Assembly: GCF_900107775.1 (NCBI RefSeq)
Contig: NZ_FNRF01000002.1
Span: 685,129-749,128 of the forward strand
DNA length: 64,000 nucleotides
Source: Xylanibacter ruminicola
GTDB taxonomy: Bacteria; Bacteroidota; Bacteroidia; Bacteroidales; Bacteroidaceae
Reading direction: 5' to 3'
Shown in pieces: positions 8,646 through 33,789 of this stretch. Position 1 is the first letter of the stretch, and each line of letters opens with the position of its first letter. The notes beneath the pieces were generated by a model. The model was not told where the DNA came from. It worked only from the letters and a program-made list of their open reading frames with translations, and did no database searches. A program made the translations under genes and the position numbers.

Positions 8646-8653
8646 GTCTATAC

Positions 8654-8779: not shown

Positions 8780-8787
8780 CACTAATA

Positions 8788-10551: not shown

Positions 10552-10583
10552 AATGACAATATTGTTATTAATCTCGTAATTCT

Positions 10584-11495: not shown

Positions 11496-11562
11496 ATTCT
11501 GCAAGTTCTTTTGAGATTGTCATATTATACTTATTGATATACTTTCCTGTAGGCGTTATCAT
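11488..11562 (-). repeat. 75-bp copy of the abiEi 3' end, forming a 24-codon coupled mini-frame
   Basis: This segment matches the last 75 bp of abiEi (15102-15176) at 70 of 75 positions by hand alignment. It encodes MITPTGKYINKYN followed by MTISKELAEYE and stop. Its ATG overlaps the DUF262/DUF1524 stop as ATGA, and its stop overlaps the AbiEii start within ATGAATGA. It is therefore an open mini-frame able to pass ribosomes from one gene to the next. It records how the DUF262 pair came to lie between antitoxin and toxin. Confidence 0.85.
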
Positions 11563-13592
11563 ATGTTCATAATAATCTCAAGCATTTTCTCTTGATGCCG
11601 AACCATATCATCAACATTCCATTCTAAGCCAAATGGACGTTTCAAATATTCATTTATGACACCAGCATCGTAATTGTCCTGGCATATTTGTAACATAATT
11701 CGAAACTTTAGGGAAGCGACACTTACTTGATTGGACTTTGTATCAAGATAGCGATTCTTTTTATCAATTGGATTCCAGTTAGAGCCTGAACTATTTGCAT
11801 CAGAACCTATCATTGCAAAATTACCAAAGCAATTTATATCTTGCGAACTAATTGGCATATTGTCCCCTGCTTTAGCTTGTGGATAATAATGCTCCAAACT
11901 TTTTCGAGTTCGAGAGAAATAGAAATTCTTGAATGGTTCCAACTCAAAGTCACTACAACCTAATGCGCTGAAAAACTCTATTCTATTACGCGAACCCTTC
12001 TTTTCTTTATTACTTCGAAGTTCTTCTGCATATTTTTTCCATAGCTTATAATCTGTATAGTTAAATACATAGAGAGGTATATTGCATGAACCTACAGGAT
12101 AAACGCTATCAAAGCAACGATCAACGTCCTCTAATTCAACATTTAATTCGCCGCCATTAAGAATAGTTTCATCGAAACTATTAGGCTTTGGTTGATTGAT
12201 TTCGTTGAGTTTACTTGCATCGAGATATACATCAAAGAAATACTTGTCTGCAAGTTTTCTCAAGAATTCTAAATAATTATCAAGGTCCCAATCTTCGAAT
12301 AAATGAAGTAAGCAATAGAACAGATAGTTCTTTCTTTGCTTGGGTGTAAAAGAAACTTCAAACATGGAAAGAAGTTGAATAACCTCGTTTTGTCGTGCTT
12401 TATTACCCTCGTATAAATCCTTTAGATAAGCAGCCTTATTACCTTTCTTATAATAATATTGCAACTTCCATGGATTTTCAATGACTCTATCTTCACCATT
12501 TGCGTGGTGTATAACATAATTGTCAAGGAAATATTTAGCAGAAAGGAGATTATATGCAAAGTCTTTAACAAACTCTGGAGTAAGATTTACCTTCTCGAAC
12601 TCCTTAATGAGTTCTTTATCATCAAGCGTAAAACTCAAAGGATTGAAGTCTTTTTCATCCTTCAGCCTCGTAATTTTCAGTACAATCAATAGAAAATTCG
12701 GAAAGTCTATTATTGGCTGGAAATGATCGTTATTGTCAATCACATCATCTTTATCTATCTTTTTTATAGGCGAATTTAAAAACTCTGAAATGGTTTTCAT
12801 ACCTAATGATGAAGATGTATCTACATCAGAACTTGGAAACTCGTCGAAAGACTCTATATCAAAGCTTTCCATAGTTTTACCAAAGACACTTGTCATATCT
12901 GGGAGTTTCTGCTGAATATAGAAACTCATATCACTACAAGCCTCCCATATACGGCTAAACTTCTGCATTGCATTGTCATCGCCTATTAACTGTTCGCTGA
13001 GTTTAGCTTTTACTATTTCATGCTTTTCCAACTGCTCACCACGAGAGTTCATAACTTCAAAATAGTGATTTAAATCCACATCTTTCGGCACACGATAATG
13101 AATGATATGTACCTTGTTCAAGAAAAAATCCTTGAATGTATCTATTTCATCATTCTTTTCGCCAACAATGTCTTTGAGAGCTTCTTTTGCATAATTGAAC
13201 CCATCGACAATACCAAGGTCTTTTTCTTCACCAAACTTAGGCATCTTTTCTATTGTCACTGCTGAAACTTTTCTTGCAGAATAAGTAAGAGTATTTGGAA
13301 TAGTTTCTATACCCAAAGCTTTCAAAATAATGTAGATTGTTGTCAATCGTTGCTGACCATCAATAACCTCAAAGATATTCTCATCACGCTTATATGTGAC
13401 AAGAGTTCCAATATAGTAAACCGACTTCTTCAAGGAATCGTACACATCTTTTATCAAGGCGTAGATCTCTTCACGTTCCCAAGCATAATTACGCTGATAT
13501 ATAGGAATCTTATATATTATAGAAATCCCTCTGTTTGTGAAATATATATCGTTAATAGAACACTCTTCAAGAATATTATTCAAATCTTTCAT
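11559..13592 (-). CDS. DUF262 plus DUF1524 (HNH) GmrSD-like protein
   Basis: About 677 residues. The N-terminal DUF262 domain has IYQRNYAWEREEIYALI and the signature VIDGQQRLTT near residue 77. The C-terminal part carries the DUF1524/HNH pattern: LEHYYPQAK, then CFGNFAMIG and SGSNWNPIDKK. DUF262-DUF1524 proteins include GmrSD and SspE, which restrict phage DNA using NTPase-linked HNH cleavage. The start at 13592 (MKDLNNILEE) is chosen because an ATG follows the upstream gene's stop by 5 bp; a TTG further upstream is less likely. It ends with an ATGA overlap onto the abiEi-tail copy. Probably works with the DUF262-only protein upstream. Confidence 0.85.
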   Translation of the reverse strand: MKDLNNILEECSINDIYFTNRGISIIYKIPIYQRNYAWEREEIYALIKDVYDSLKKSVYYIGTLVTYKRDENIFEVIDGQQRLTTIYIILKALGIETIPNTLTYSARKVSAVTIEKMPKFGEEKDLGIVDGFNYAKEALKDIVGEKNDEIDTFKDFFLNKVHIIHYRVPKDVDLNHYFEVMNSRGEQLEKHEIVKAKLSEQLIGDDNAMQKFSRIWEACSDMSFYIQQKLPDMTSVFGKTMESFDIESFDEFPSSDVDTSSSLGMKTISEFLNSPIKKIDKDDVIDNNDHFQPIIDFPNFLLIVLKITRLKDEKDFNPLSFTLDDKELIKEFEKVNLTPEFVKDFAYNLLSAKYFLDNYVIHHANGEDRVIENPWKLQYYYKKGNKAAYLKDLYEGNKARQNEVIQLLSMFEVSFTPKQRKNYLFYCLLHLFEDWDLDNYLEFLRKLADKYFFDVYLDASKLNEINQPKPNSFDETILNGGELNVELEDVDRCFDSVYPVGSCNIPLYVFNYTDYKLWKKYAEELRSNKEKKGSRNRIEFFSALGCSDFELEPFKNFYFSRTRKSLEHYYPQAKAGDNMPISSQDINCFGNFAMIGSDANSSGSNWNPIDKKNRYLDTKSNQVSVASLKFRIMLQICQDNYDAGVINEYLKRPFGLEWNVDDMVRHQEKMLEIIMNI

Positions 13593-13597
13593 TGTAA

Positions 13598-15109
13598 TCA
13601 ATTTTTATAGTAACCATTTATTTGAAAGAAATACAGATAGTTTTCATACACACCATCTTTCTCATCCTTTAGATCCTTCAATGTTTCTCCTTTGCCACTA
13701 TACTCATAACACTCCTGCGCCCATCCGTCTTTAATGTCATCATTTGAAAGAGGATTTAGCATGTCAGCTAAAGCACTCAATAATGAGGTCGGTGAATCTT
13801 GCTTAACAATGAGTTTATACATATTGAATGCATTGATTTTATCACTCCATCCCATAATGTAATTCTGTGCAGAAAGCCAACCGAGATTAGTGTATTGGGC
13901 TCTCAATGAATAAGCCCAAATAAACGCGTAGATAACAAATTGTTCAAATAGTTCTATATCTTCTTTTGTAGGATATGTTTCTGGGCAGAATCTATCAACG
14001 TAAAGTAGAACAGAGGTGTCAAACATCAGACGTACTATACTATTACCTATTCCTTTTTTGAAATGTCGATCCAAAGTTTTAACTATAATGTTGTCGTTGA
14101 TATAGAACCCTTCATACTTATTATTGTTCTGAATATCCTTTAATATCTTATAATAGTGCTTTGTATATTCAAAGAACGGCTTACCTGCAATTATAGGAGT
14201 GTTCAATTGGAACGCATTTACATTTCGAGTTCCTGAAACAAAAGGCATAGCAGAAGAGTTGACCATATCTGCATAACAATAGGCACTCTTATAGAATTGG
14301 GCATAAGGCGTTCTTGCCGAACGCGTAATACCTTTGAACATATGGATATTATGCTCATTTAAAACATTTGCTTTATTGCCACTTACCCATTCTTTGATAC
14401 GATATAGGTAATTACCAAAGAAATCTGCTAAACCACTTTGTGAAACCTGTTCCCAATCCTTTACAATCTTTTCTGTCTCATCCTCACTAATGTCATCCAT
14501 TTCGCGAAGATGGTATGCTTTCAACAAATCATGAGGGTAAAGAGCCTTACCTCGTGCATTTTGAGAATCAAAGAATTGGAATGCTTCCGATACGTCTGAT
14601 GTTATAACAACAATCAACTCGCACCTATTCTCTATGTAGTCCTTTAGACGTTCCATCTCTCGTTGGTGTTCGATAGCCGAATCACTTTCTTTCGATTTTA
14701 AACCAACCCTTCGGAAAAGTGCATTATAGTTGTTGGCAATGTTATGATTATTATGCTCATTGTCATATATTTTCTGCTGCAAGAACTCGATTCCATCTTC
14801 TCCTAATGCAGTCAGAAGTAGTGAGAATGTTATGGTACGTTGTTGACCATCAACAATATCATATTGATTCTTATCATTTAACTTGTGAAGGATAAGTGTA
14901 CCTACTCTGTATCTTTCCTTGTTGCTATTCTTCGCATCAATAATGTCATCAAGCAATTGTATGGCATTACGAGCCGTCCATTTGTATGGGCGCTGATAAA
15001 TAGGCACACAAAGGCTTACGTTCTTAATTGGTTCCTCGCCATTAGTTATGGTTTTACGAAGGAGCAAATCACCTATAGTTGTTATTGATAATGTCAGATT
15101 ATCATTCAT
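13598..15109 (-). CDS. DUF262-only protein
   Basis: About 503 residues. The N-terminus contains IYQRPYKWTARNAIQLL and the DUF262 signature IVDGQQRTITF near residue 85, plus FFDSQNARGKALYPHDLLK, another family landmark. No HNH pattern is visible at the C-terminus, unlike its neighbour. DUF262 pairs, one with and one without DUF1524, occur in defence islands and are thought to sense or cut foreign DNA. The ATG at 15109 overlaps the abiEi stop by 8 bp (ATGAATGA), so translation is probably coupled to the antitoxin gene. AT-rich like the rest of island A. Confidence 0.83.
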   Translation of the reverse strand: MNDNLTLSITTIGDLLLRKTITNGEEPIKNVSLCVPIYQRPYKWTARNAIQLLDDIIDAKNSNKERYRVGTLILHKLNDKNQYDIVDGQQRTITFSLLLTALGEDGIEFLQQKIYDNEHNNHNIANNYNALFRRVGLKSKESDSAIEHQREMERLKDYIENRCELIVVITSDVSEAFQFFDSQNARGKALYPHDLLKAYHLREMDDISEDETEKIVKDWEQVSQSGLADFFGNYLYRIKEWVSGNKANVLNEHNIHMFKGITRSARTPYAQFYKSAYCYADMVNSSAMPFVSGTRNVNAFQLNTPIIAGKPFFEYTKHYYKILKDIQNNNKYEGFYINDNIIVKTLDRHFKKGIGNSIVRLMFDTSVLLYVDRFCPETYPTKEDIELFEQFVIYAFIWAYSLRAQYTNLGWLSAQNYIMGWSDKINAFNMYKLIVKQDSPTSLLSALADMLNPLSNDDIKDGWAQECYEYSGKGETLKDLKDEKDGVYENYLYFFQINGYYKN

Positions 15110-15863
15110 ATTCTGCAAGTTCTTTTGAGATTGTTATATTATATTTATTGATGTACTTTCCTGTAGGCGTAACCATAAACCTGGATGTACCAAGATTGAT
15201 ATTCTCCAGTTTCAAAGCTTTATACCAGGAGTGGCTAGCCTTTTCTGCCATATAGAGGAACAGGCGCTTCACTTTTTGCGATGTGCATGCCTCTAATAAT
15301 GTCTGAACCAACTTGGGACGTAATGTAGTTAAGCCCTCCATGATGTAATAGATGTCAAGCAAAGATGACGATGCATCCGGCAAGTTCAGACACTCTAATA
15401 TGGCACGCTCTGGAGATGACACAAGCAAATCATGTTGATTGACAGTCATGTTTTCTACACCCAAAAGTTCATCACCCAGGAAAGAAGTTGTCATATATTT
15501 TATAGTCATATCCCAATCCTCTTTTAGCAACCATGAAGGCAACTTATTGCTTTTGTCTGTAAACAGATAAGCTTTAGGCTTTCCCATTGACAGGTAATGG
15601 GAGTATCCTCGAAGTTCCAAAGCTGTATATGCACCTACCACACAACTCTTACTAAGTTGCGTGTTATATGACGATACAGCAGCAAATAAACTTGGTTCTG
15701 TTCCATGTATCTTATAGACCCCTTTAGATATACGGTCAAGCCATCCGCTTTTCATATAAGCATACTGACCACGTGCATCTAATCCCTGACCTGAAAGCCA
15801 CGAACCAAACAAGACCGATTCATTGGGTGCTGCCTCTAATATTTGCTGTATTTTTGTAGCCAT
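15102..15863 (-). CDS. abiEi: AbiEi-family antitoxin
   Basis: A 253-residue type IV antitoxin-like protein. The N-terminal part (SWLSGQGLDARGQYAYMKSG and WLDRISKGVYKI) is the winged-helix region typical of AbiEi, which represses its own operon in characterised cases. VVGAYTALELRGYSHYLSMG and the ISSPERAIL-like VSSPERAILECLN region follow, as in full-length members. It is the first gene of a minus-strand run that includes the DUF262 pair, abiEii and two unknowns. A -7-like box lies about 40 bp upstream. Its last 75 bp are duplicated just before abiEii. Confidence 0.85.
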   Translation of the reverse strand: MATKIQQILEAAPNESVLFGSWLSGQGLDARGQYAYMKSGWLDRISKGVYKIHGTEPSLFAAVSSYNTQLSKSCVVGAYTALELRGYSHYLSMGKPKAYLFTDKSNKLPSWLLKEDWDMTIKYMTTSFLGDELLGVENMTVNQHDLLVSSPERAILECLNLPDASSSLLDIYYIMEGLTTLRPKLVQTLLEACTSQKVKRLFLYMAEKASHSWYKALKLENINLGTSRFMVTPTGKYINKYNITISKELAEYE

Positions 15864-16163
15864 TTTCGTTAATTTTATGAATACCAGTCTAAATTTGTTG
15901 CAAAAATACTCTTTTTGTTTTGTCTAACCAAACATTTCACTCAAATATTGGCAGTTTTTATATAAATTTATCTCCAAATTCGCAATTTTAGCGAATTTAA
16001 GAACAAAAAGCACGCATAAAACTATAAATAGAAATACAATTGCCACCCAAAGAAAAAGAGGCCATTGAACATAAAAAAACGCTTATTGTACTTGTGTCAT
16101 CAAATGATTTGTCCCACAAGTATTCTCACATTTTATTGGATTTAGAAGAAAAACTATACAAAT
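15864..16163. promoter_or_regulatory. Divergent intergenic region: abiEi promoter-like box and hairpin
   Basis: There is no gene here. On the minus strand, TATTTTTG (complement of 15901-15908) fits the Bacteroidota -7 element and lies about 37 bp before the abiEi ATG. A perfect 8-bp inverted repeat, AAATTCGC (15976-15983) and GCGAATTT (15991-15998), could be an operator or hairpin. A second imperfect inverted repeat, ACTTGTG / CCACAAGT, lies close to the PHP gene. Promoter role is inferred. Confidence 0.5.
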
Positions 16164-16733
16164 ATGAAAACTCCTAATTTCGTACATCTTAATGTACATT
16201 CACATTATTCCATTCTTAACGGATGCTCCACCATCCAACAAATTGTGGACTCTGCTATAAAAAACAGAATGCCAGGCATTGCCATTACTGACAATGGTAA
16301 TATGTTTGGTATTATGGAGTTTATTGACTATGTAGCTCGCATCAATAAAGAAAGACAAGAGAAGGGAAAGAAACCCTTCAAGCCCATTATAGGATGTGAG
16401 CTGTATGTGGCAAAACACGGCCCTAAAGAACAGAAGAATGGAATCAAAGATTATAAGGGCTATCATCTGACTGTTCTTGCCAAGAACCTACAGGGATACA
16501 AGAATCTTATCAAGATAGTCAGCAATGCCTGGACAGACGGATTCTATATGGCTCCTCGATCTGACCGGATGGATTTGGAGAAGTACCATAATGGACTGAT
16601 TGTTCTGTCTTGCGGTTTTGGCGGTGAGGTATTCACTCATGCCACGAAGGAGGATATGACTGCATTAGATGAAACCATCAAATGGTACAAACATGTATTT
16701 GGCGACGACCACTCCAGTCAGGACAAGCAATAA
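16164..16733 (+). CDS. Stand-alone PHP-domain fragment of DNA polymerase III alpha (DnaE) type
   Basis: The 189 residues correspond to the N-terminal PHP domain of bacterial DnaE only, ending abruptly in DDHSSQDKQ. Family landmarks are FVHLNVHSHYSILNG, TDNGNMFGIMEFIDYV and KPIIGCELYVA. In DnaE proteins with an active PHP site the first is HLHxHS and the second TDHGN. Here both of those histidines are Asn, so the metal site is probably lost. The frame is open and otherwise well kept. It is either a truncated dnaE remnant brought by the island or a retained decoy or interaction module. The rest of the polymerase is absent. The gene converges with the next gene. Confidence 0.72.
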   Translation: MKTPNFVHLNVHSHYSILNGCSTIQQIVDSAIKNRMPGIAITDNGNMFGIMEFIDYVARINKERQEKGKKPFKPIIGCELYVAKHGPKEQKNGIKDYKGYHLTVLAKNLQGYKNLIKIVSNAWTDGFYMAPRSDRMDLEKYHNGLIVLSCGFGGEVFTHATKEDMTALDETIKWYKHVFGDDHSSQDKQ

Positions 16734-16745
16734 TCCGTATCATAG

Positions 16746-17273
16746 TTATTTCTTCACCCAAGGCATCGACAGGTCAATGTCCGACAAACTTTCCAGTTGC
16801 TGCTGATAGATGTCGGCATGTTCGCGCGTGAAATAGTCGAGCGTGAAGAGTGTCAGCGTAAAATAGATGCACATCAGGGCGATGGCTCGCCAAATTGGTG
16901 CTTTGAAAAGGGCGAAGCCCAGGAAGCCCGCCACCAACATCACACCTCCTAAAACCAGGGCGACGGTATAGTTGGGCATGAATGCTGCCACACGTTCCTT
17001 CTCAGACTGCAAGAACCTTTCCGGCGAATCCTGGTATGCCTCGCGGAAATCATCAATCCGTTGGCGGTTGGTGTAAGTCGTACCGACGGCAATCCCTATC
17101 TGTAAAACCGACATTGCCACCAAGGGCAGTACGATGGCACGTGCCGTCTCTATCGTCCCCCACTTCCAGAAGGCGATAGCCACTATCAGCCCGACGACGC
17201 CGACGGCTGTGAGCCATTTGGCGGTGTAAATCTCGCTCTCGCACCATTTGATGCTGTAGTCAATCAGTTCCAT
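16746..17273 (-). CDS. Four-helix membrane protein of unknown function
   Basis: 175 residues with four hydrophobic stretches that look membrane-spanning: WLTAVGVVGLIVAIAFW, AIVLPLVAMSVLQIGIAV, ALVLGGVMLVAGFLGFALF and AIALMCIYFTLTLFTL. A soluble loop rich in charged residues lies between helices two and three. I recognise no family. It is the last gene of a three-gene minus-strand set (AbiEi-like, RICIN, membrane protein) with 19 bp to the RICIN gene, so it may act with them at the inner membrane. Base composition here is more GC-rich than in the DUF262 region. Confidence 0.6.
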   Translation of the reverse strand: MELIDYSIKWCESEIYTAKWLTAVGVVGLIVAIAFWKWGTIETARAIVLPLVAMSVLQIGIAVGTTYTNRQRIDDFREAYQDSPERFLQSEKERVAAFMPNYTVALVLGGVMLVAGFLGFALFKAPIWRAIALMCIYFTLTLFTLDYFTREHADIYQQQLESLSDIDLSMPWVKK

Positions 17274-17292
17274 ATCTATTTTGTTCTAATGT

Positions 17293-17820
17293 CTAAATCC
17301 ACGGAGTTTGGCGTATGATTCGCCAGCGTTGGCTATTGTCACCCCTGTAGGGCTGTAGCTGAATGCGGTCGTTCTCCTCGTTGGTCGGAGACGTGATGTA
17401 TAGGTCACTGCCGTCCAGTCTGATAAGATAGGAGTTGTCTTCCTGTTTCAAGAACTGCCACAGTTGATTTCTTGTGCCGTCCATCGACTGCTGGCAGAGG
17501 AATGTTCCTACTTTTGGTTCTCCGTCAGGCTGGAAACTGCGTTCACTATAAAGGTTCATCAGCAGTACATTCGCCGAGTCCGCCTTTATCATTTCCCAGG
17601 TGATACACTCCCAGTTATGGAGAGGATATTGGATAAGTGGCGTTCCATTCTCATACCCGGCATCAAGCGGTCGTAGGCACAAGCCGTTACCCACATTCTG
17701 AATGGCGTATGTGTTTTCGAAACTCTTTTTCTTCTTAATATCCTTACTGAACCTTGGAGTATACACGGCCAATACTATCAGCACGAGTACGAGAAGTACG
17801 GTTGAAATCTTGTATATCAT
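17293..17820 (-). CDS. Membrane-anchored RICIN (beta-trefoil lectin-like) domain protein
   Basis: 175 residues. The first 25 form an uncleaved-looking signal anchor (ISTVLLVLVLIVLAVYTP). The rest shows RICIN-type repeats with terminal Q/C-x-W-like signatures: NGLCLRPLDAGYENGTPL, NQLWQFLKQEDNSYLI and NSQRWRIIRQ. RICIN domains usually bind carbohydrate; the ligand here is unknown. It starts 5 bp after the shortened AbiEi-like gene and precedes a four-helix membrane protein, suggesting one transcript. A surface- or periplasm-facing sensor or effector is possible but unproven. Confidence 0.65.
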   Translation of the reverse strand: MIYKISTVLLVLVLIVLAVYTPRFSKDIKKKKSFENTYAIQNVGNGLCLRPLDAGYENGTPLIQYPLHNWECITWEMIKADSANVLLMNLYSERSFQPDGEPKVGTFLCQQSMDGTRNQLWQFLKQEDNSYLIRLDGSDLYITSPTNEENDRIQLQPYRGDNSQRWRIIRQTPWI

Positions 17821-17825
17821 ACCAG

Positions 17826-18314
17826 TTAAAGCGAAAATTCTATAGATTTTGCAAAGTCCTTTCTGTCTTCCAGTCCCTTTACATGACCAAGATTGTTCAT
17901 TGAGCCATGGATGTTCTTCAGATAGAAAGTCTTGAAGAGCGGATGGTCAGGGTTGTTCTGATAGAGTTCGTGCACGATACTGCTCTTCTCCATAATCAGC
18001 TGCTTCACCTGGCGGTTGTCCTCAAACACCACCTCTGCACTTAGCATACATACATAGTAGGGCTTGCTAAGATAAGCCATCAGCTGGTCTATATAATAGG
18101 TTGCAGGTACTGAACCACGAAGAACGTAATGAACAGGAATGATTACATAAAAACCTCTATACACATTGGCTATAGTCTTATTTGAACATAGCCTGGAAAG
18201 TTCATTCTGAAGAATCTGTTCAGAAGAGCACAAGCCAGCAACTCTCACTTCTTCGATAGAAAACGTGGGATAACCATGAATGGCTCGGTCTTCAATCCAC
18301 TTTTGCAATGTCAT
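17826..18314 (-). CDS. Shortened AbiEi-like (winged-helix) antitoxin
   Basis: 162 residues resembling only the N-terminal half of AbiEi antitoxins: a helix-turn-helix region (FSIEEVRVAGLCSSEQILQN), NVYRGFYVIIP and the family-like YYIDQLMAYLSKPYYVCMLS. It then departs from the family and stops. No AbiEii gene follows; a RICIN protein and a membrane protein take that place. It may be a truncated antitoxin surviving as a DNA-binding repressor of its new operon, or a family with a genuinely shorter antitoxin. It lies at the right edge of island A's gene content. Confidence 0.6.
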   Translation of the reverse strand: MTLQKWIEDRAIHGYPTFSIEEVRVAGLCSSEQILQNELSRLCSNKTIANVYRGFYVIIPVHYVLRGSVPATYYIDQLMAYLSKPYYVCMLSAEVVFEDNRQVKQLIMEKSSIVHELYQNNPDHPLFKTFYLKNIHGSMNNLGHVKGLEDRKDFAKSIEFSL

Positions 18315-19027
18315 ACTTGGTAATTTTGGTGCAAATATAATAAAATTATTATTAAATACGCATTTCTTTTACCAGAATCTATTCTACTTTATACATTTTT
18401 CTAATAAACAAATCTATTTTTGACACTCTAAAATGACTTTTTGCCGTCAAAAGGAGAAAGATACGGAAATTAGTTTGTAGCGCAGCAATAGCCTGTTTAG
18501 TTTATCCCCATATTAAATATCCATAACCTAAACTAAACCTTTTATCTTCCGACTATAATATATATTACGTCGAAGGGACAGAATTTGGAACAGGAGGAAC
18601 ATGATGTACAAAAGTGTACCCCGAGGGACAGATTTCGATTTTTGCCTCCAAGGGACAAAATTAGTATCAACACTTTTTAACAACCCAATTTTGAGATAAA
18701 AAATGCTCCGATTTTTTGCCTGATTATAAAGATATACAAAGAACTGCAAAGATAATTGTACCTGAAGGGATTTAAATTGGAGGTCGCTCTTCACTCGCTT
18801 CTCAGTGAATACAAAAATGTGCAAGAATCCGTGTTAACGAATGTGAATATACAAAGAACTGGAAAATCGTCTTTGCAGATGTTTGTATATTTTATTTTTG
18901 ACGGCAGCTTCATTTGCAGATGTTTGTATATTTTACGTCCCTCCTCCGTCCCTCGGCATACAATCTGTCCCTCTATATTGGAGGAATATACATTGATTAT
19001 CATACACTTATATTTGCAGATTTTACA
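18315..19027. other. Right-end repeat region of island A
   Basis: About 700 bp without a credible gene. It contains the inverted repeat GTTTAGTTTA (18495-18504) / TAAACTAAAC (18529-18538). Three GGGACA motifs point one way (about 18572, 18623, 18650) and three TCCCTC motifs the other way (about 18936-18973). TATACAAAGAACTG occurs twice (about 18731 and 18848) and is the inverse of the TTTGCAGATGTTTGTATA repeats. ATATTTGCAGATTTT (19010-19024) matches the left end. A block starting CTCGCTTC at 18793 is about 80 percent identical over 41 bp to the right end of island C (48547 onward). This looks like a composite, partly decayed element end. Confidence 0.6.
18872..18935 (+). repeat. Two direct copies of a 23-bp repeat
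   Basis: A 23-bp sequence beginning TTTGCAGATGTTTGTATA and ending TTTTA is present at 18872-18894 and again at 18913-18935, a spacing of 41 bp. Its core TTTGCAGAT is the same motif seen beside both attachment-like sites of island A. Iterated sites beside an attachment site are typical of recombinase arm sites, but the binding protein is unknown. Confidence 0.75.
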
Positions 19028-19064
19028 TTCTGCATCGGAAAGTAGATTCTGCGTGGGCAAATAA
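19028..19064 (+). other. Attachment-like sites 2a and 2b, two mnmE tails in tandem
   Basis: TTCTGCATCGGAAAGTAG (19028-19045) encodes Phe-Cys-Ile-Gly-Lys-stop, and one base later TTCTGCGTGGGCAAATAA (19047-19064) encodes Phe-Cys-Val-Gly-Lys-stop. Both are clear variants of the mnmE 3' end with different synonymous choices, so they came from different donor mnmE genes. They separate island A from island B. Confidence 0.75.
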
Positions 19065-19250
19065 GGTAGTCCAAACTACCTGAATATCAGCAAGTTACAA
19101 ATTTCTCGAGAAACATATATATATATTTAGGAGAAAACCTAATTATTTCATTATCAGTGAGTTATGTTTTAAATGGCATGACAAAAACGACTGTTTTGAG
19201 GCCATTTTTCTACCCTATTTCTACCCTCTAGAAAGTTTTTATTTTTTAAA
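19065..19250. other. Left-end non-coding region of island B
   Basis: Immediately after site 2b comes a hairpin GGTAGT-CCAA-ACTACC (19065-19080), then a palindrome TTTCTCGAGAAA. Two TTTCTACCC motifs occur 11 bp apart (19207-19215 and 19218-19226). The 12-mer CCTATTTCTACC (19214-19225) recurs exactly and in the same orientation at 30041-30052, near the right end of island B. No gene is visible. Confidence 0.6.
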
Positions 19251-19502
19251 AACGCCCAAAAACGAGGCAAAAAACTTCTTGCCTTGTTCCGAAAACTTGT
19301 TGCCGACGAAAACACGGTCATCATCATCGAACACCGCCTTGAACTCATCGCCCAAGCGGATTACATCATCGAGATGGGACAAGGCGGCGGCACCGACGGC
19401 GGCAAAGTCGTCTTCCAAGACCCTCCGCAAGAGATTATCCACTGCCAGCAATCGAAGACGGGGCGGTATCTGAAAGATGCCTGTTATGCCCAATTCTCAT
19501 AA
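19251..19502 (+). pseudogene. 3' fragment of a UvrA-like excinuclease ABC ATPase gene
   Basis: The open frame encodes about 80 residues matching the extreme C-terminus of UvrA-type proteins: LLALFRKLVADENTVIIIEH, then ADYIIEMGQGG and GGKVVFQDPPQEI, ending in TGRYL. The Walker B and H-loop context (IIIEH) is kept, but the rest of this roughly 900-residue family is missing. Upstream is the island B left end, so the gene was truncated when the island was assembled or trimmed. A hairpin terminator follows. It is almost certainly non-functional alone. Confidence 0.75.
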
Positions 19503-19518
19503 TAAATCCCAAAAGTTT

Positions 19519-19549
19519 CTCCCACATCAGCGCGATGCGGGAGTTTTTT
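19519..19549 (+). terminator. Hairpin terminator after the uvrA-like fragment
   Basis: CTCCCACATC, loop AGCGC, GATGCGGGAG, followed by six T. Nine of ten base pairs form. It is consistent with a rho-independent terminator inherited with the uvrA-like 3' end. Confidence 0.7.
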
Positions 19550-19581
19550 GTGCCTTTGCACTAGAAACAACTATAATATAG

Positions 19582-19713
19582 ATGTACTATGTCATCTCGC
19601 ACAACGGACTGGACTTCTCGCCTTTGAACGGCGGACGGCCTGTAGTCGTTGCAGATACTATCAGCGTGAGTGGTGAAGATAATATGAATTTATGGGATGT
19701 CCGGTGTCTGTGA
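19582..19713 (+). CDS. Short reading frame of unknown status
   Basis: A 43-codon frame (starting MYYVISHNGLDFSPLNGG) between the uvrA-like terminator and the convergent AraC gene, whose 3' end it overlaps. I recognise no family. It may be another truncated gene end at a cassette junction rather than a real gene. Confidence 0.2.
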   Translation: MYYVISHNGLDFSPLNGGRPVVVADTISVSGEDNMNLWDVRCL

Positions 19714-20562
19714 GGACTGAGTATGGCTGATGCGATATTCCATTGGTGTGCAGCCAAAGTGTTTCTTGAAGTACTTGCCGAAGAAGGAGGTGTTCTCAAA
19801 GCCCAGCCGCAGGGCCACCTCCTTGACACTAAGGTCGGTGGAGAGCAGCAAGTAACGGATGTCCTCGTTCACCATATCAGCAATCCACTCGTGGGCCGAC
19901 TTTTGGCTGCAAGCTTTGCAGATGGTGGCAAGATACTTGGGCGTGATGCAGAGCTGCCGGGCGTAGTATTCTACCGTCTGCTTCTTGACGGTGGCATTCG
20001 TTAGCGTGTCAAGGAATCTCTTGAAGTGCATATGTCCAGTACTGGCATCTTCGGCCATGTCGGTCTGCCACTCGCTTTGCTCCATCATCGACAGAATCTC
20101 GTAGAGCAAGGCATGAATGATAGTACGGATAATCTCCTTATGATAGGGTTCATTGGGAGTCTGTAGCTTCGACTCCAACAGATAGTCGTAGTAGGCCAAT
20201 TGCTGCAGGTGTTGCTCTGACAGATTGTTTACCTGTCTCTTGTTGATATACAGCATACGGTTCCACTGCTTGATGTTATTGCGCATCAGTTCCTGTACCA
20301 GCCTTACAGACAGCCGCACCACGTTGACCTTGGTATCGGGGCTTACCAAGAGGTGGTCGATGTGCTGTCCTGGCATGCAGATGATGAATGTATGCTCGGC
20401 GATGTCGTGCGGCTGTCCGTTTAGGTGAAGTTTCACCAGTCCCTGACGGCACATAATAAATATGTAGCCGTCGGCTTGTGTATGGTTCAGACGCGACAGG
20501 TCGGTAATGTTCCGCATTTGCGTGATACACTCGTCGATATAGTCTATGTCTTTTTTATCCAT
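19690..20562 (-). CDS. AraC-family transcriptional regulator, divergent from the RND pump
   Basis: 290 residues. The N-terminal part is a cupin-type sensor (FIICMPGQHIDHLLVS region). The C-terminal part has two helix-turn-helix units: VEYYARQLCITPKYLATICK and VKEVALRLGFENTSFFGKYF, ending with the family signature KHFGCTPMEYR. The ATG at 20562 is preferred over an in-frame TTG at 20574 because the TTG lies inside the promoter box TACCTTTG. The gene is divergent from the RND efflux operon 187 bp away, so it is the probable regulator of that pump. The near-absent leader (about 5 nt) is noted separately. Confidence 0.88.
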   Translation of the reverse strand: MDKKDIDYIDECITQMRNITDLSRLNHTQADGYIFIMCRQGLVKLHLNGQPHDIAEHTFIICMPGQHIDHLLVSPDTKVNVVRLSVRLVQELMRNNIKQWNRMLYINKRQVNNLSEQHLQQLAYYDYLLESKLQTPNEPYHKEIIRTIIHALLYEILSMMEQSEWQTDMAEDASTGHMHFKRFLDTLTNATVKKQTVEYYARQLCITPKYLATICKACSQKSAHEWIADMVNEDIRYLLLSTDLSVKEVALRLGFENTSFFGKYFKKHFGCTPMEYRISHTQSSQTPDIP

Positions 20563-20571
20563 TATCGGTTG

Positions 20572-20579
20572 CAAAGGTA
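20572..20579 (-). promoter_or_regulatory. -7 promoter box for the AraC gene
   Basis: TACCTTTG on the minus strand fits TAnnTTTG and ends only 9 bp before the ATG at 20562, predicting a very short or absent 5' leader. Confidence 0.6.
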
Positions 20580-20698
20580 ATGAATATTTTTCTTTCGTCG
20601 TGTCCTTTACGTCGAAAATTGTGTGCTTTTTCCGTGAAGTTCGCCTTTTAGCACATTTCCTTCGCCGTATGGAATATCATTGAATGTTCCTTTTGTGC

Positions 20699-20706
20699 TA
20701 CTTTTG
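20699..20706 (+). promoter_or_regulatory. -7 promoter box for the RND efflux operon
   Basis: TACTTTTG fits the Bacteroidota -7 element and lies 42 bp upstream of the adaptor ATG. No clear -33 TTTG is seen, as would suit a promoter that needs the AraC activator. Confidence 0.55.
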
Positions 20707-20748
20707 CGCCTACAAAACAAAATTCGAGTTATACAGGAGTAAAAAAGT

Positions 20749-21768
20749 ATGAAAAAGGAAAATCATGTATTAATGATGTTCGCGCTACTGGCACTGGCAG
20801 GTTGCGGCGGGCAGAAAGAGAAACGGGAGGCGGCTCCCGTGCGAGTGACCACAGAGAAAGTAAGTCTAGGGATGGACTATGCCCAAAGTTCCTACGTGGG
20901 ACAAGTTCAGGAGGCATCAAGTACTGCTGTCAGCTTCATGTCGGCAGGCACCGTGAGCCGTGTCTATGTAGAGGAGGGGCAGCGTGTTAGTCGTGGCCAG
21001 TTGATAGCCGAGATGGATAACACCTCTGCCCGCAATGCCCTGCTGGCCGCCGAGGCCAGCCTGCGGCAGGCTAAGGATGCCTATGAGCGCATGAAGCAGT
21101 TGCACGACGACCAGACGTTGCCCGAGATGCAGTGGGTGGAGGTGCAGAGTAAGTTGCAGCAGGCGCAGTCGGCCTACGAACTATCTAAGAAGAATGTCGC
21201 TGACTGCCGTCTGGTGGCTCCCGTCAGCGGCATCGTCGGTCAGAAGTTCGTCGATGCCGGTGAAACGGCCATGCCCGGCAGTCCTGTGGTGACACTACTC
21301 GACATATCCCATGTCAAGGTCAAAGTCTCTGTGCCTGAAAACGAAATCAACGGCATTCCGACCTCTGTCGCATCCACCATCAAGGTAGCGGCACTCGGCG
21401 GCGAGACTTTCCAGGGCGGACGCATCGTGAAACACGTTGCCAGCGATGCTATGACCCACAGCTACGGCATCCAGATTCACCTCGCCAATCCCTCGGGGCG
21501 CCTGCTGCCTGGCATGGTCTGCACTGTGAGGTTCAACCATGAGTGCAACCCGCAAATAACCGTTCCTGTCACCGCCGTGCAGCGCGGGCAAGGCCAGTCG
21601 CTATATGTCTGGACTATCAGCAACGGGCGGGTACGACAGCAGCCCGTCTCGACTGGCGAGACCTACGGTAGTCGCATCGTCATCACCGACGGCTTGAAGG
21701 AGCGCGACAGCGTGGTGACTGCTGGCTGGCAAAAATTGAGTAACGGAAGTAAAGTGTCGGCGTTATGA
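20749..21768 (+). CDS. RND efflux periplasmic adaptor lipoprotein
   Basis: 339 residues. The N-terminus is a lipoprotein signal (MFALLALAGCGGQKEK, lipobox LAGC). The HlyD/AcrA layout follows: a lipoyl-like half with VEEGQRVSRGQLIAEMDN, a short alpha-helical hairpin (residues about 95-150), the second lipoyl half RLVAPVSGIVGQKFVDAGE, and beta-barrel and membrane-proximal domains. It connects the inner-membrane RND pump to the outer-membrane channel. The next gene overlaps its stop by 4 bp (ATGA), giving a three-gene operon. Drug substrate unknown. Confidence 0.92.
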   Translation: MKKENHVLMMFALLALAGCGGQKEKREAAPVRVTTEKVSLGMDYAQSSYVGQVQEASSTAVSFMSAGTVSRVYVEEGQRVSRGQLIAEMDNTSARNALLAAEASLRQAKDAYERMKQLHDDQTLPEMQWVEVQSKLQQAQSAYELSKKNVADCRLVAPVSGIVGQKFVDAGETAMPGSPVVTLLDISHVKVKVSVPENEINGIPTSVASTIKVAALGGETFQGGRIVKHVASDAMTHSYGIQIHLANPSGRLLPGMVCTVRFNHECNPQITVPVTAVQRGQGQSLYVWTISNGRVRQQPVSTGETYGSRIVITDGLKERDSVVTAGWQKLSNGSKVSAL

Positions 21769-24700
21769 GCAAGGAAAAAAACAGCCGGTGGGTGGCGTGG
21801 ATGATGCGCAACTACCGCCTCACCTTTCTGGTCGTGGGGCTGATGTTTATTCTGGGCATCTACGGACTGGGTAGGATGTCTAAAGCTGAGTTTCCTGATT
21901 TTACCCTGCGGACGGGCGTTGTGGTAGGCATCTACCCGGGAGCCACCAGCGAGGAGGTGGAAGAGCAGCTTGTAAGGCCGCTCGAGCGCTACCTGTTTAC
22001 TTTCAAGGAGGTGAACCGTTCCAAGACCACCAGCACGAGCCAGAACGGGATTTGCAGTGTTATGGTGGAACTGAACGATGATGTAAATAACAAGGATGAA
22101 GTATGGAGCAAGATCAAACACGGGCTAAATGCATTTAAGTGTACTTTGCCGAAAGGTGTGGCAGACGTTGTGGTCAATGACGAGTTCGGCGACACGTCAG
22201 CGCTGCTTGTCGCCGTTGAAAGCGATAGCCGGGATTACAGGCAGCTGGAAAAGTATTGTGACCTGATTGGCGACCGCCTGCGAACATTGCCTTCCGTCTC
22301 GAATGTGCGTATTTTGGGGAACGTGAAAGAGCAGATTTCCGTCATCGTCGATTACGACCAGCTGTCGGCATACGGCATCAGCAGCCAGCATCTGGCCGAC
22401 GCATTGTCCGCGCAGGGTATCACCACTGTCAGCGGAAGTGTGAGCGGTTGGCAGAAGGATATGCCTGTCCATGTGTCGCCCGCCTTACGGGGCGAAGATG
22501 AAATATCCGAACAGATTCTATACAGCGATGCCGCAGGCCGGGTAGTCCGAGTAAAGGACGTGGCGCGTGTTGAACGCGGGTACGACCTGACGGATGGTTT
22601 CATTGAGTACAACGGGCATCGCTGCGTCATCATCTCGATGGAAATGCTGGCAGGCAACAACATCGTGCAATATGGGCGAGACGTTGAAAGCCTGCTGGCA
22701 GAGGTCAAGGCCGCCGAACTGCCGGATGACGTGGCAATACACACCATCAGCGACCAAGCCAGTGTGGTCAGTGCCAGCGTCAATTCATTCCTGCGTGACC
22801 TGTTCGTCTCGATGGTAGTCATCATCCTCACGATGATGCTTCTTTTCCCGTTGAGTTCGGCACTGGTTGCTTCCACCGCAATTCCCGTGACGACGTTCAT
22901 CTCGGTGGGCATCATGTATCTGGCCGGCATCCCACTCAACACGATTACGCTCGCAGCTCTGATTGTGGTACTCGGTATGGTCGTGGACGATTCAGTCATT
23001 GTCATCGACGGCTATCTGGAATACCTCAATACAGGGATGAGTCGCTGGCACGCTGCCTGCCGGAGCATTTCGACCTATTTTATGCCCATGTTGTTGGCTA
23101 CTGCTTATATCAGTGCCATTTTCTTCCCGCTGTTGCTTACCTGTACTGGGCAGAAGGGAGATTTCCTGCATGACTTTCCGATTGCCATCGCTATTAACCT
23201 GATGACCTCGCTGTTCGTGGCTTTGGTCGTTATTCCGATACTGCTGGTCACTCTTATCCGGAAGAAGACTCATAAGGAAGGACGTAAAAGCATTACCGAC
23301 TACGTGCAGGAAATATACGACCGACTGCTCGGCTGGGTATTCCGTCACGCATGGCTGGCACTGGGCATGGCCGTCGCCGTTCTGCTCTCCACGGTGTTCT
23401 ATGCCAGCGAGGTCAAACGGCGCATGATGTCCTGCTCGGAGCGCGACCAGTTCGCCGTGGAGATCTACCTGCCTAAAGGAACGGGACTGGCTGAGACGGT
23501 ACAAGTGGCCGATTCTGTCTATACTGTGCTGGGCAGCGACGAGCGGGTGCGAGCCATCACCTCGTTCAAAGGTTGTGCATCGCCCCGTTTCCAAGCCTCC
23601 TACACCCCTAAGCAAGGTGGAAAGAACTATGCGCAGTTCATCGTGAACACCATCTCGAACGAGGCTACGGAGCAACTCGTGGACGAATACACGGCACGAC
23701 TTTCGGAAGCCTTCCCTAATGCCTTTGTCAAGTTCAAGCAGTTGGACTCCCAGGTGTTTCAGGCACTGGAGTATCGCTTTTATGGGGAAAATCTGGACTC
23801 CCTGCATAGTGCTGCCGGGCAGCTTATGGACTATATGCGCAGCAATCCCGACTTGATGTGGGTGCGCACCGACTTCGAACAGCCGGAACCGATAGTGGAA
23901 GTTACACTCGACGAGATAGCCGCAGCACAGTTGGGTATCAGTCGCCAGTCTCTTTCGCTCGGTCTGATGTCACAGATTGATGCCCGTCCGGTAACAACCC
24001 TGTGGGAGGGGGATTACGGAGTTCCAGTCATGTTGAAGGACGACCGTTGGGACGATGCGGGATTCGAGGACTTCGGTCATATCCACCTGCAGCCGATGAC
24101 ATCCCCCTCGAAGGTGCAGTTGAAACAGGTAGCCGGAGTGTCACCCAAGTGGAGTGAGACGAAAATCGTCCACCGCAACGGTGTGCGCTGCATGACGGTG
24201 ACGGCCGAACTTCCACGCACCATGACAGCGGAGAACTTCGCCCCCGACTTACAGCGGTTTGTCGAGGAAGAGATGCGCTTGCCCCAAGGTGTAACCACCG
24301 AGTTAGGCGGAGAGATAGAAAACGACAAAGAGAGCATGCCGCAGCTCGGAGCGGGACTGTTCATCGCCATGATTATCATTTTCTTCTTCCTGCTGTTCAA
24401 TTTCAAGAAATACAAGCTGACGTTCGTCTGCATGTTCGCTGTCATACTATTCATCCCCAGTGCCATGTTCGGCCTTTTCATTACCGACACCACAATGGGA
24501 CTGACAACCATCTTCGGGTTCATCACGCTGATGGGGCTGATTATGCGTAATGAGATTCTCATTTTCGAGCATGCCGAGGGAGGAATGAAAAACGGGCTGT
24601 CGGCACGCGAAGCAGCATTCGAAGCGGGCAAGCGACGAATGGTTCCCATTTTCCTGACAACGGTAACGACTGCCGTAGGCGTCGTGCCGATGATTGCTGC

Positions 24701-24821
24701 GGGCTCCGCCATGTGGAAGCCCGTGGGCATCACTATTCTTTTTGGCGGCCTGGGTGCGCTCGTGCTGGTCGTCACCGTGTTACCGGTCATTTATTGGAAA
24801 ATTAACGAAAAAAGAGGATGA
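21765..24821 (+). CDS. RND (AcrB/HAE1-type) efflux transporter
   Basis: 1018 residues, full length for the family. Two homologous halves each have one N-terminal helix (YRLTFLVVGLMFILGIYGL) and a six-helix bundle; the helix 4 motif LAALIVVLGMVVDDSVIVID contains the acidic pair expected for proton relay. Periplasmic porter and docking segments lie between. It exports substrates using the proton gradient, together with the adaptor upstream and the TolC-type protein downstream, each overlapping by 4 bp. Controlled most likely by the divergent AraC protein. Substrate cannot be deduced. Confidence 0.94.
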   Translation: MSKEKNSRWVAWMMRNYRLTFLVVGLMFILGIYGLGRMSKAEFPDFTLRTGVVVGIYPGATSEEVEEQLVRPLERYLFTFKEVNRSKTTSTSQNGICSVMVELNDDVNNKDEVWSKIKHGLNAFKCTLPKGVADVVVNDEFGDTSALLVAVESDSRDYRQLEKYCDLIGDRLRTLPSVSNVRILGNVKEQISVIVDYDQLSAYGISSQHLADALSAQGITTVSGSVSGWQKDMPVHVSPALRGEDEISEQILYSDAAGRVVRVKDVARVERGYDLTDGFIEYNGHRCVIISMEMLAGNNIVQYGRDVESLLAEVKAAELPDDVAIHTISDQASVVSASVNSFLRDLFVSMVVIILTMMLLFPLSSALVASTAIPVTTFISVGIMYLAGIPLNTITLAALIVVLGMVVDDSVIVIDGYLEYLNTGMSRWHAACRSISTYFMPMLLATAYISAIFFPLLLTCTGQKGDFLHDFPIAIAINLMTSLFVALVVIPILLVTLIRKKTHKEGRKSITDYVQEIYDRLLGWVFRHAWLALGMAVAVLLSTVFYASEVKRRMMSCSERDQFAVEIYLPKGTGLAETVQVADSVYTVLGSDERVRAITSFKGCASPRFQASYTPKQGGKNYAQFIVNTISNEATEQLVDEYTARLSEAFPNAFVKFKQLDSQVFQALEYRFYGENLDSLHSAAGQLMDYMRSNPDLMWVRTDFEQPEPIVEVTLDEIAAAQLGISRQSLSLGLMSQIDARPVTTLWEGDYGVPVMLKDDRWDDAGFEDFGHIHLQPMTSPSKVQLKQVAGVSPKWSETKIVHRNGVRCMTVTAELPRTMTAENFAPDLQRFVEEEMRLPQGVTTELGGEIENDKESMPQLGAGLFIAMIIIFFFLLFNFKKYKLTFVCMFAVILFIPSAMFGLFITDTTMGLTTIFGFITLMGLIMRNEILIFEHAEGGMKNGLSAREAAFEAGKRRMVPIFLTTVTTAVGVVPMIAAGSAMWKPVGITILFGGLGALVLVVTVLPVIYWKINEKRG

Positions 24822-26077
24822 AAATGAAATACTTATCGAAACACTTGTCAATACTGCTATTGTTGCTCCCCATAACAGCAGCAGCACAGCCATACACATT
24901 AGACCAATGCCGCGAACTGGCACTGAAGCGAAACCGTACCCTACAGTCAGCCCGTCTCGATATGTCGAAAGCCGACGAAGACAAACGCAAAGCCTTTACA
25001 GCCTATTTCCCTGAAGTGTCGGGCATGGGTGCCGCGTTCTGGGCTGATGACTATATGATTCAGATGGGGCAAACGGCAATGTTGAAAAACGGAAGGATGG
25101 CTACCCTGAGTGCCACGCAACCCCTGTTCGCCGGTGGGCAGATTGTCAATGCCAACCGTTTGGCGAAGGTACAGCAAGAGGTGTCGGCGTTGAAATACCA
25201 TCTCACAGAGAACGAAGTCCTACAGCGCGTTACCGAAACTTACTGGCAGATTTTCAGCTTGCAAGCCAACCTCACTACGCTCGACAGTAGCGACCGTCTG
25301 CTGGCTGAACTCCTGCGTATGACAAACAGCTATGTCCGTGCCGGGGTACGCCTGCCGGCCGACACGCTGCGCTTGCAGCTGCGCCGTCAAGAACTGGAAT
25401 CCAACCGACTCTCCATCGACAACGCCCTGCGCCTCTGCCAGATGTCGCTGGCCAACATGATGGGTATCGACTGGCAAAGATTCTCCATCGTCGACACCAC
25501 CTTTGCACAGCCTGCAGACCCCGTCACAGCTTTCATTCCTGCCGACGATGCTGCCACCCAGCGCAGTGAGTATCTGCTGCAAGAACGCGCCGTCGATGCA
25601 AGCCGACTTCAATTACGTATGGAACGTGGAAAACTGCTGCCTACGCTTGGTGTCGGTGTGAATGGTATCTATGCTAACCTGATGGAGAAGAATGAGACAC
25701 ACGGCATTCTCTACGCCACCCTCAGCGTCCCCATCTCCGCATGGTGGGGAGGCAGTCATGCCATCCGCAAGGCACGTTATAACCGCCAGCAGGCTGAACT
25801 CGCACTGCAAGACACTCGTCAGAACTTGCGCTTAGACATTGAGCATGCATGGAACTCCCTCGTGGAGTCCTACCGGCAAATCGATGTCGCCCGCCGCAAC
25901 GTCATCTCTGCCCAGGAGAACCTGCGCCAGAACCAGTCCTACTACCGTAACGGCACCACGACTATCAACGACCTCCTCGATGCCGAAAACCAACTATTGC
26001 AATCCCAAAACCGACTAACCTCCGCTCTTGCGACCTACCAAGTGCGTCTGGCCGATTACGGGCGGAAAGTGAAATAG
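24818..26077 (+). CDS. TolC-family outer-membrane efflux protein
   Basis: 419 residues with a signal peptide (LSILLLLLPITAAAQ). The two repeated TolC halves are seen as YTLDQCRELALKRNRTL near the start and LALQDTRQNLRLDIEHAWNS in the second half, with NGTTTINDLLDAENQLLQSQ at the end. It forms the outer-membrane duct of the tripartite pump. It overlaps the RND gene by 4 bp. Directly downstream is a flavodoxin gene tail, indicating a cassette boundary. Confidence 0.92.
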   Translation: MKMKYLSKHLSILLLLLPITAAAQPYTLDQCRELALKRNRTLQSARLDMSKADEDKRKAFTAYFPEVSGMGAAFWADDYMIQMGQTAMLKNGRMATLSATQPLFAGGQIVNANRLAKVQQEVSALKYHLTENEVLQRVTETYWQIFSLQANLTTLDSSDRLLAELLRMTNSYVRAGVRLPADTLRLQLRRQELESNRLSIDNALRLCQMSLANMMGIDWQRFSIVDTTFAQPADPVTAFIPADDAATQRSEYLLQERAVDASRLQLRMERGKLLPTLGVGVNGIYANLMEKNETHGILYATLSVPISAWWGGSHAIRKARYNRQQAELALQDTRQNLRLDIEHAWNSLVESYRQIDVARRNVISAQENLRQNQSYYRNGTTTINDLLDAENQLLQSQNRLTSALATYQVRLADYGRKVK

Positions 26078-26099
26078 AACCCAAGGAGACCCTACACGG

Positions 26100-26258
26100 A
26101 TGCCGACCGTCATTCCCTTCGCCACCTATGGCGGCAGCAGCATCAAGAAGGCCTGCGAAGACCTGAAAGCTGCCTACCCAGATGTAAACTGGAAGGAAGG
26201 CAAACTCCTGAACAGGACAAGCAAAAAGGAATTAGAGACTTGGGTAAAAGGATTGTAA
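26100..26258 (+). pseudogene. 3' fragment of a flavodoxin-family gene
   Basis: A 52-codon frame beginning MPTVIPFATYGGSSIKKAC and ending LETWVKGL. This matches the C-terminal strand and helix of Bacteroidota flavodoxins (the 'FATSGGS' region). The N-terminal FMN-binding part is absent. Together with the uvrA-like tail at 19251 it shows that the AraC-RND cassette was inserted between, or replaced, the 5' portions of other genes. A terminator follows directly. Confidence 0.7.
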
Positions 26259-26262
26259 CAGC

Positions 26263-26303
26263 AAAAACGTCCGTGTCACGAAAGAATGGCACGGACGTTT
26301 TTC
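26263..26303. terminator. Bidirectional hairpin terminator
   Basis: AAAAACGTCCGTGTCA, loop, GGCACGGACGTTTTT: a near-perfect stem flanked by A and T runs. It serves the RND operon on the plus strand and the convergent metalloprotease/TauE/HipBA run on the minus strand. Confidence 0.85.
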
Positions 26304-26305
26304 TT

Positions 26306-26872
26306 TCAATCATCTTCATCCTCTTCCATTTTACAGATTTGACGTGTCGCCTTACGGGCTTCCTTCCAACGAGGGAAGTATTTGTCCATCAGCGCATGGA
26401 AACGGGCATTGTGACTGGGTTCCAACAGATGGCACAGTTCATGAACCACCACATGCTCGACACACCATTCCGGCAACAGCAGCAGATAGGCCGAGAAGCA
26501 GATGGACTTATCATTAACTTTGCAGACACCCCAACGTGAAATCATCGCCTTGTAATATACAACCGAAGGTTTCACACCCATCTCCTTTGAATGGCGTTCC
26601 ACCATCGGCTCTATCAGGGCTTTAAGTCGCCGTTGGGCATCATCAGCCTGTTCTCTTGTCTTTAGCGGCAGCTTATTATAGAAGTTTGCCCTACGCTTTT
26701 GGCTTTCGTAAGTTTTCTTCCGTGCCTCCGTTATCCAGTCGCGGTGTTCCTCAATGAACCGTTCTACCTCTTTCTTTGGCATACCAATGAGTGCTGATAC
26801 ATGCACATCGCCATTCTTCACGATGCGCATTGACAGCCTCCTGGTTCTCCTGTATGTTACCTGTATTGCCAT
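26306..26872 (-). CDS. YgjP/SprT-like (M48/DUF45) zinc metallopeptidase
   Basis: 188 residues of the YgjP-like family. The zinc-binding motif appears as VVHELCHLLEPSHNARF (HExxH form with a second histidine seven residues on) near residue 145, preceded by WGVCKVNDKSICFSAYLLLL as in family members. Family length is about 170-240 residues. These genes often travel next to restriction or toxin-antitoxin genes. It is the last gene of a minus-strand run following tauE, 1 bp apart. Cellular substrate unknown. Confidence 0.85.
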   Translation of the reverse strand: MAIQVTYRRTRRLSMRIVKNGDVHVSALIGMPKKEVERFIEEHRDWITEARKKTYESQKRRANFYNKLPLKTREQADDAQRRLKALIEPMVERHSKEMGVKPSVVYYKAMISRWGVCKVNDKSICFSAYLLLLPEWCVEHVVVHELCHLLEPSHNARFHALMDKYFPRWKEARKATRQICKMEEDEDD

Positions 26873-26873
26873 T

Positions 26874-27602: not shown

Positions 27603-27612
27603 CGTTATTCCG

Positions 27613-29103: not shown

Positions 29104-29109
29104 AACAGC

Positions 29110-30108: not shown

Positions 30109-30109
30109 A

Positions 30110-31147: not shown

Positions 31148-31169
31148 AATTAAGAATTAAGAGGTATTA

Positions 31170-32270: not shown

Positions 32271-32296
32271 TTCTCTAAACACTAAACTCTAAACGC

Positions 32297-33766: not shown

Positions 33767-33789
33767 AATTGTCAATTATCAATTGTCAA

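Follow-up and report, generated by a model that had tools for sequence, protein, structure and literature searches.

The window (the whole stretch of DNA analysed here, 64,000 nucleotides, from contig C9:685129-749128 of genome G000) contains an mnmE (trmE) gene followed by two unlike islands, A and B (Table 1). The mnmE gene is intact to its FCVGK stop, its 3' end reads TTCTGCGTGGGAAAGTGA, and repeats of this end are found at 19028, 19047 and 30091, which is the arrangement of site-specific islands at the mnmE 3' end. Searching the window with a degenerate tail pattern (at most one mismatch) obtained six matches, while 0.05 were expected. The matches start at 7230, 19028, 19047, 30091, 48579 and 37032, and the last one is taken for chance, as is a tail at C10:368927 in the same genome, which has no island-end context.

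At the boundary between the two islands, two tails are separated by a single A. The first (T1) reads TTCTGCATCGGAAAGTAG and encodes F C I G K stop, while the second (T2) reads TTCTGCGTGGGCAAATAA and encodes F C V G K stop. Their stop codons differ (TAG in T1, TAA in T2), and the resident mnmE ends in TGA. The first-pass annotation, made from the letters of the window, had pointed out these two different tails one base apart, which is exact, and had read them as recombination cores left by islands at mnmE, where one shared core would be ordinary; our analysis agrees with both statements.

Table 1. Features of the mnmE locus and of islands A and B (positions in the window)
Feature	Position	Strand	Basis or content
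mnmE (trmE), target gene	5904..7247	+	Pfam TrmE_N and MnmE_helical; tail pattern
Left junction of island A, last 18 bp of mnmE	7230-7247	+	tail pattern
Conserved left end (LE) of island A	7248..7472	+	87-93% identity over about 180-240 bp to left ends of other loci; repeats
Island A	7248..19027	.	37% GC; AbiEi/AbiEii, two GmrSD-like proteins, ORFs without assignment
Conserved non-coding right end (RE) of island A	18495..19027	+	67-93% identity over about 230-615 bp to other loci
T1, element-borne first core (TTCTGC ATC GG AAAGTAG)	19028..19045	+	allele-blind right-end comparison
One-base spacer A	19046..19046	+	22 of 23 right-end pairs have A, one has GT
T2, second core, actual A/B junction	19047..19064	+	position 9 G in 23 of 23; position 12 mixed
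Island B	19065..30090	.	50% GC; AraC regulator, RND efflux pump, HipA-like kinase and HTH protein, TauE, YgjP
Right end of island B, different type	29851..30090	+	97.5% identity over 240 bp to an island right end in L141 (G320, Prevotella sp. MA2016)
Single tail at the right end of island B, TCCTGCGTGGGAAAATAG	30091..30108	+	tail pattern

The left end of island A holds ATCTGCAAATAT at 7271-7282, which is inverted relative to the right-end motif, and the right end carries ATATTTGCAGATTTT at 19010-19024. Among the 60 longest matches listed, relatives of this right end include the right ends of integrase-bearing elements. Within island A, an AbiEi/AbiEii pair (10584-15863) has its antitoxin and toxin split by two inserted GmrSD-like genes, and the same gene order (AbiEi, two GmrSD-like genes, AbiEii) is repeated in locus L077. 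A truncated AbiEi-like N-terminus covering about 93 of 260 profile positions is found near the right end (17826-18314), and a protein of 189 aa (16164-16733) has a match limited to the PHP N-terminal part of DNA polymerase III alpha. Two ORFs beside the left end (7482-8645 and 8788-10551; 387 and 587 aa) had no match in Pfam, NCBIfam or PADLOC. They also had no match to five related integrases, so an unrecognised integrase is not claimed for them. At the left end of island B, positions 19239-19502 hold what seems to be the 3' remnant of an ABC-type ATPase gene, which we take to resemble the C-terminus of UvrA.

From about 30109, the DNA of the window matches DNA that lies beyond an island-end pair in locus L058. 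An ABC-transporter/AraC module (30116-37087) matches L085:809-7648 of Xylanibacter ruminicola Ga6B6 (85.6% over 6982 bp), and because the Ga6B6 copy directly precedes an mnmE-island right end, this module may be mobile cargo itself. Further downstream, the 21 bases at 48580-48600 are identical to 7231-7251, which spans the mnmE end and the four bases with which the left end of island A begins. This tail-like stretch (48579-48600) sits between a CMD/cupin gene and a permease gene and is perhaps an older island boundary.

Conservation of the tail pair across genomes

Tail pairs no more than 30 bp apart were found in 26 of 299 genomes of the genus and in 26 of 399 genomes of the family, where they occur in nine of 30 genera (the two samples overlap). 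In neither listing did a reversed control pattern match. Scanning GTDB contigs with the exact T1-A-T2 core identified 77 loci, a set biased for core conservation since the core sequence was fixed in the scan; the genomes sharing the exact core are titled Prevotella, Segatella, Xylanibacter and other Bacteroidales. The exact core had no match in viral contigs (viral_contigs), and a phage origin was set aside on this one weak test. The allele was left free in the pair searches of the genus and the family, in the search for tails joined to left ends and in the count of 23 right ends given below. A tail joined to the start of an island A-type left end was detected in 13 of 398 genus genomes.

The distinct pairs with a one-base spacer (n = 98) occur mainly in two contexts: 53 follow the conserved right end, 37 stand at an mnmE end, and eight belong to neither group. 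In the first context the pair is preceded by '...ctgattatcagccacttatatttgcagat' and about six bases, and the DNA beyond the pair differs among loci. In the second, the pair ends mnmE itself, often with island DNA beyond. For the 53 distinct right ends, which include loci of the core-fixed scan, the information per base was 1.94 bits in T1, 1.93 bits in T2 positions 1-11, 1.38 bits in T2 positions 12-18 and 0.15 bits downstream. When the 23 distinct right ends from allele-blind searches were considered, the free positions 12, 15, 17 and 18 of T1 were invariant and its position 9 was C in 22 of 23, while in T2 of the same right ends position 9 was always G and position 12 was mixed (A 11, C 5, G 4, T 3). 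The invariance of T1 and the mixed position 12 of T2 indicate that T1 belongs to the island and the right half of T2 to its neighbour. T1 is a fixed part of the right end of this island family and runs on without a break from some 0.5 kb of conserved non-coding DNA, and T2 is the junction with whatever adjoins downstream (island B in the window, other DNA elsewhere). Within T2 of the window, positions 1-11 are attributed to the end of island A and positions 12-18 to the left side of island B.

A second type of pair was also detected, in which one TCGG core and one GTGGG core are separated by a 3-nt spacer (ACA), in either order, in five genomes (G185, G125, G559, G703 and G647). This type would be an independent instance of a site with one core for each allele. 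Pairs with a 3-nt spacer (ACA or ATA), again in either allele order, are located at L121, L282, L289, L290 and L266, and the one in G185 has a different-looking right end.

Insertion layouts and mnmE alleles

Comparison of the loci supports an attachment site of the family made up of two tandem cores 19 bp apart, in the order RE-T1-A-T2-LE, with T1 fixed as TTCTGC[A/G]TCGGAAAGTAG and T2 keeping TTCTGCGTGGG, the last seven bases of T2 going with the right-hand neighbour. T1 and T2 each code for a full mnmE terminus, stop codon included. A circular form carrying this site and a host with one tail would give three tails per insertion. Recombination at T2 would leave a single tail at mnmE and a pair at the right end (1+2, as for island A of the window), while recombination at T1 would leave two tails at mnmE and one at the right end (2+1). 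Both layouts were found. The 1+2 layout is present in G153, G055 and G167 (one contig each) and in G666 (two contigs), and the 2+1 layout in G317 (one contig) and in G302, G303, G306, G307, G309, G524, G740 and G095 (two contigs each). In the window, island A fits the 1+2 layout, and island B, next to it, fits an island with a single core. In these 13 two-ended examples, picked by eye among the fetched genomes, the base at position 9 is equal at both ends in 12 (G in four, C in eight), the exception being G095; six of the eight C-type left ends of the 2+1 layout came from a search with TCGG fixed, while the 2+1 right ends were found allele-free. Further genomes in which both ends were seen (for example G019, G033, G106, G196, G320, G321 and G838) were left untabulated, as their tails could not be counted with certainty owing to tandem islands or unclear left ends.

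In G307 and G524 the two ends differ at position 7, and in the 2+1 examples the right-hand tail is unlike T1 from position 12 on, as expected of host DNA. These two observations place the presumed strand exchange within tail positions 7-12. If excision used the other core than insertion did, 19-bp scars and single-core islands would result; excision at T1 after insertion at T2, for example, would leave a 19-bp repeat in place. G803 seems to carry such a predicted scar with no adjoining island: its mnmE is followed by GTGGGAAAGTAGA-GTGGGAAAGTAA and then directly by the flank that adjoins a single tail in L227 and L228. Several arrays hold more tails than a single insertion predicts, with pairs at both ends in G081 and G585, three tails at mnmE in G150 and three at the right end in G811 and G204. 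These arrays can be explained by scars, single-core circles or neighbouring islands, but such explanations are post hoc.

No integrase was recognised in islands A and B by a Pfam scan of the larger ORFs and by comparison with related integrases. The whole genome has four Phage_integrase matches, none of them inside the window; two were compared with a 365-aa integrase of related elements, one being 29% identical to it over 139 aa and the other having no match. This 365-aa tyrosine recombinase is 96-98% identical among elements of G185 (Segatella baroniae B14), G320 (Prevotella sp. MA2016) and G585, all of which carry an island A-type right end. In G278 and G167, apparent larger elements, each some 90 kb long, share this right-end motif and have other tyrosine recombinases near mnmE. 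For four of five related integrases the best NCBIfam matches were the general XerC, XerD and XerA models, all below cut-off. A tblastn search of 23 stretches (including the window region 30109-48600 and one G185 island in two pieces) found an integrase in four (G185c2, G319, G320E1 and G585) and a fragment in G320E2, and such an integrase is also present in G081. The tyrosine integrase of related elements would act in trans on the integrase-less islands.

The two core types correspond to common alleles of the target gene. A set of 129 mnmE tails of the genus, which covers 126 of 149 genomes and includes loci with islands, had GTGGG at positions 7-11 in 56 cases, ATCGG in 53, GTCGG in nine, ATTGG in seven and ATAGG in four, so the T1 type ([A/G]TCGG) and the T2 type (GTGGG) jointly cover 118 of the 129. 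Judged by eye, both alleles extend to other genera within the same family. Families elsewhere in the order have mostly ATCGG, ATTGG or ATAGG and few GTGGG. The use of the cores is related to the allele: the tail pairs at mnmE comprised 14 with C and seven with G, and the single tails joined to a left end four with C and 20 with G (P-value = 0.0009, Fisher test, with two T single tails omitted). The 77 loci of the exact-core scan and 20 loci of another search were left aside, as were, in this first count, seven loci from genomes chosen for a C tail, and three of the four C single-tail entries were recognised by a 7-nt motif in which as many as two mismatches were allowed. With these restored to the first count and the 3-nt-spacer pairs added, the P-value is 0.004; the loci counted are those retrieved here, they lack phylogenetic independence, and many ends are on different contigs of metagenome-assembled genomes. 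Tails joined to the left-end type of island A were all GTGGG in an allele-free search (13 of 13); the informative cases among them are the six single tails at mnmE. Among four pairs at mnmE with this left-end type, one (L321) begins with GTGGG.

Strict allele matching was dropped, given a number of exceptions. GTGGG is the first tail in seven of 21 one-base-spacer pairs at mnmE, which speaks against it. In G095, mnmE ends in a GTGGG pair and a right end on a different contig has a TCGG tail, which would be a mismatched use of T1 if both ends belong to one insertion. In G770, G117 and G030 a single GTCGG tail stands at mnmE with apparent island DNA beyond, and in the first two a TCGG-GTGGG right-end pair follows further along. 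G540 and G773 have right-end pairs although the mnmE tail of the genome has C. Two different mnmE ends were found in G112 (L034 and L259), whose assembly may be mixed.

Alternative readings of the tail pair

Our main reading, to which we give a probability of about 0.7, is that the two tails form the right end of island A, which belongs to a family that inserts at the mnmE 3' end through a two-core attachment site, with a presumed role in allele matching. The two-core structure is well supported by comparison, and its function is a suggestion from the pattern of alleles. For the function, the likeliest reading, though at somewhat short of even odds, is a bivalent site: each of the tandem cores would be tuned to one common target allele, an island could thereby enter hosts of either allele, and excision through the opposite core would leave scars that serve as new targets. 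Both cores would be kept since each matches one common mnmE allele ([A/G]TCGG or GTGGG), which would widen the host range.

It is unlikely, though worth weighing, that the right arm retains T1 as an additional site for integrase binding, or as an accessory site, that serves complex assembly and not the matching of host alleles, with exchange at T1 as a by-product. Such a site would account for the conservation of T1 and the spacer in right ends of GTGGG hosts too and for T1-type pairs at some GTGGG mnmE genes, and T1 with the spacer appears to hold an imperfect inverted repeat (TCTGC...GTAGA). However, the pairs with a 3-nt spacer still combine one core of each allele, single-core ends exist (island B of the window, and the right ends left by T1 insertions), and T1 encodes a complete mnmE end which serves as the mnmE terminus in T1 insertions.

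We consider it rather improbable that the doubled end is a historical scar, arising from wrong-register excision or from two fused elements and since copied with no function. Island-free scars do occur (G803), as do triple tails (G185, G150, G709 and G811), but a neutral scar should drift and vary in its stop codon and spacer, while the free positions 12, 15, 17 and 18 of T1 are invariant in 23 right ends from several genera and the DNA past T2 is near-random.

The weakest explanation is that of the first-pass annotation, in which an element between 19045 and 19047 left only its end, or two recombination systems used shifted cores. The two tails of the window do differ in sequence and stop codon, and the process of leaving only an end seems real, as in the 19-bp island-less remnant of G803, but it is not the case of the window: the same right end followed by T1-A-T2 recurs in dozens of loci with unrelated DNA beyond, no lost element is needed for a T1 that belongs to the right end of island A, and no sign of two systems was found, the same tail and 1-nt spacer recurring in many genomes, so that this explanation is very improbable. 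The annotation had itself named the finding that would speak against it, one tail lying inside a longer conserved sequence, and since T1 is continuous with the conserved right end of island A, both of its proposals fail here. Its expectation of a different mnmE donor for each tail is close to the allele-based explanation that we now offer for the two-core site.

Site-specific elements generally need a match between their core and that of the host, and polymorphism of the target can limit their spread. If the reading of two allele-matched tandem cores is true, it would be a simple way past this limit, the host range would be predictable from a few bases, and puzzling runs of gene tails in genome arrays would be explained. 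It would also mark out a family of islands with shared ends, several with no integrase and several with defence-type genes.

Comparison with known systems

Islands that lack integration and transfer genes and keep their att sites, stacked beside other elements, are described as CIMEs (PMC5704250). Islands A and B resemble them: both keep both ends and are stacked in tandem, no integrase was recognised, and no transfer genes were found by a Pfam scan of the 18 larger ORFs of the two islands, on which this likeness is judged. Unlike CIMEs regarded as independently decayed elements, several of the integrase-less islands studied here have a conserved right end in common with islands that do bear an integrase. 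The ssrA islands of Dehalococcoides are likewise described as unlike islands between copies of the target gene 3' end, with integration genes in only some of them (PMC3146451), and the array in the window has the same organisation of unlike islands separated by gene-end copies. They differ, as described, in having a serine recombinase, a tmRNA target and a single 20-bp direct repeat at the boundary (PMC3146451). Integron cassettes do not fit the locus, where the islands hold multiple genes, both ends are conserved and no integrase lies at the array.

The closest parallel in behaviour is SGI1, described as an integrase element that inserts at the last 18 bp of trmE/mnmE and forms tandem arrays, and for which a 7-bp exchange region has been proposed (PMC2297512). 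The insertion site and the tandem arrays are shared with the islands studied here, a likeness in behaviour judged on the insertion site; a tyrosine integrase of their own was found in some related elements and not in islands A and B. As described (PMC2297512), SGI1 has a single 18-bp attP core, while the islands here would carry two tandem cores of different allele type. Among the open-licence papers listed, judged by titles and abstract openings, there was no evident description of mnmE islands in Prevotella or of an allele-matched site with two cores. Integration at the 3' end of trmE/mnmE, tandem arrays and integrase-less neighbours are already known, and the feature that appears new against this literature is the presence of two tandem cores of different allele type.
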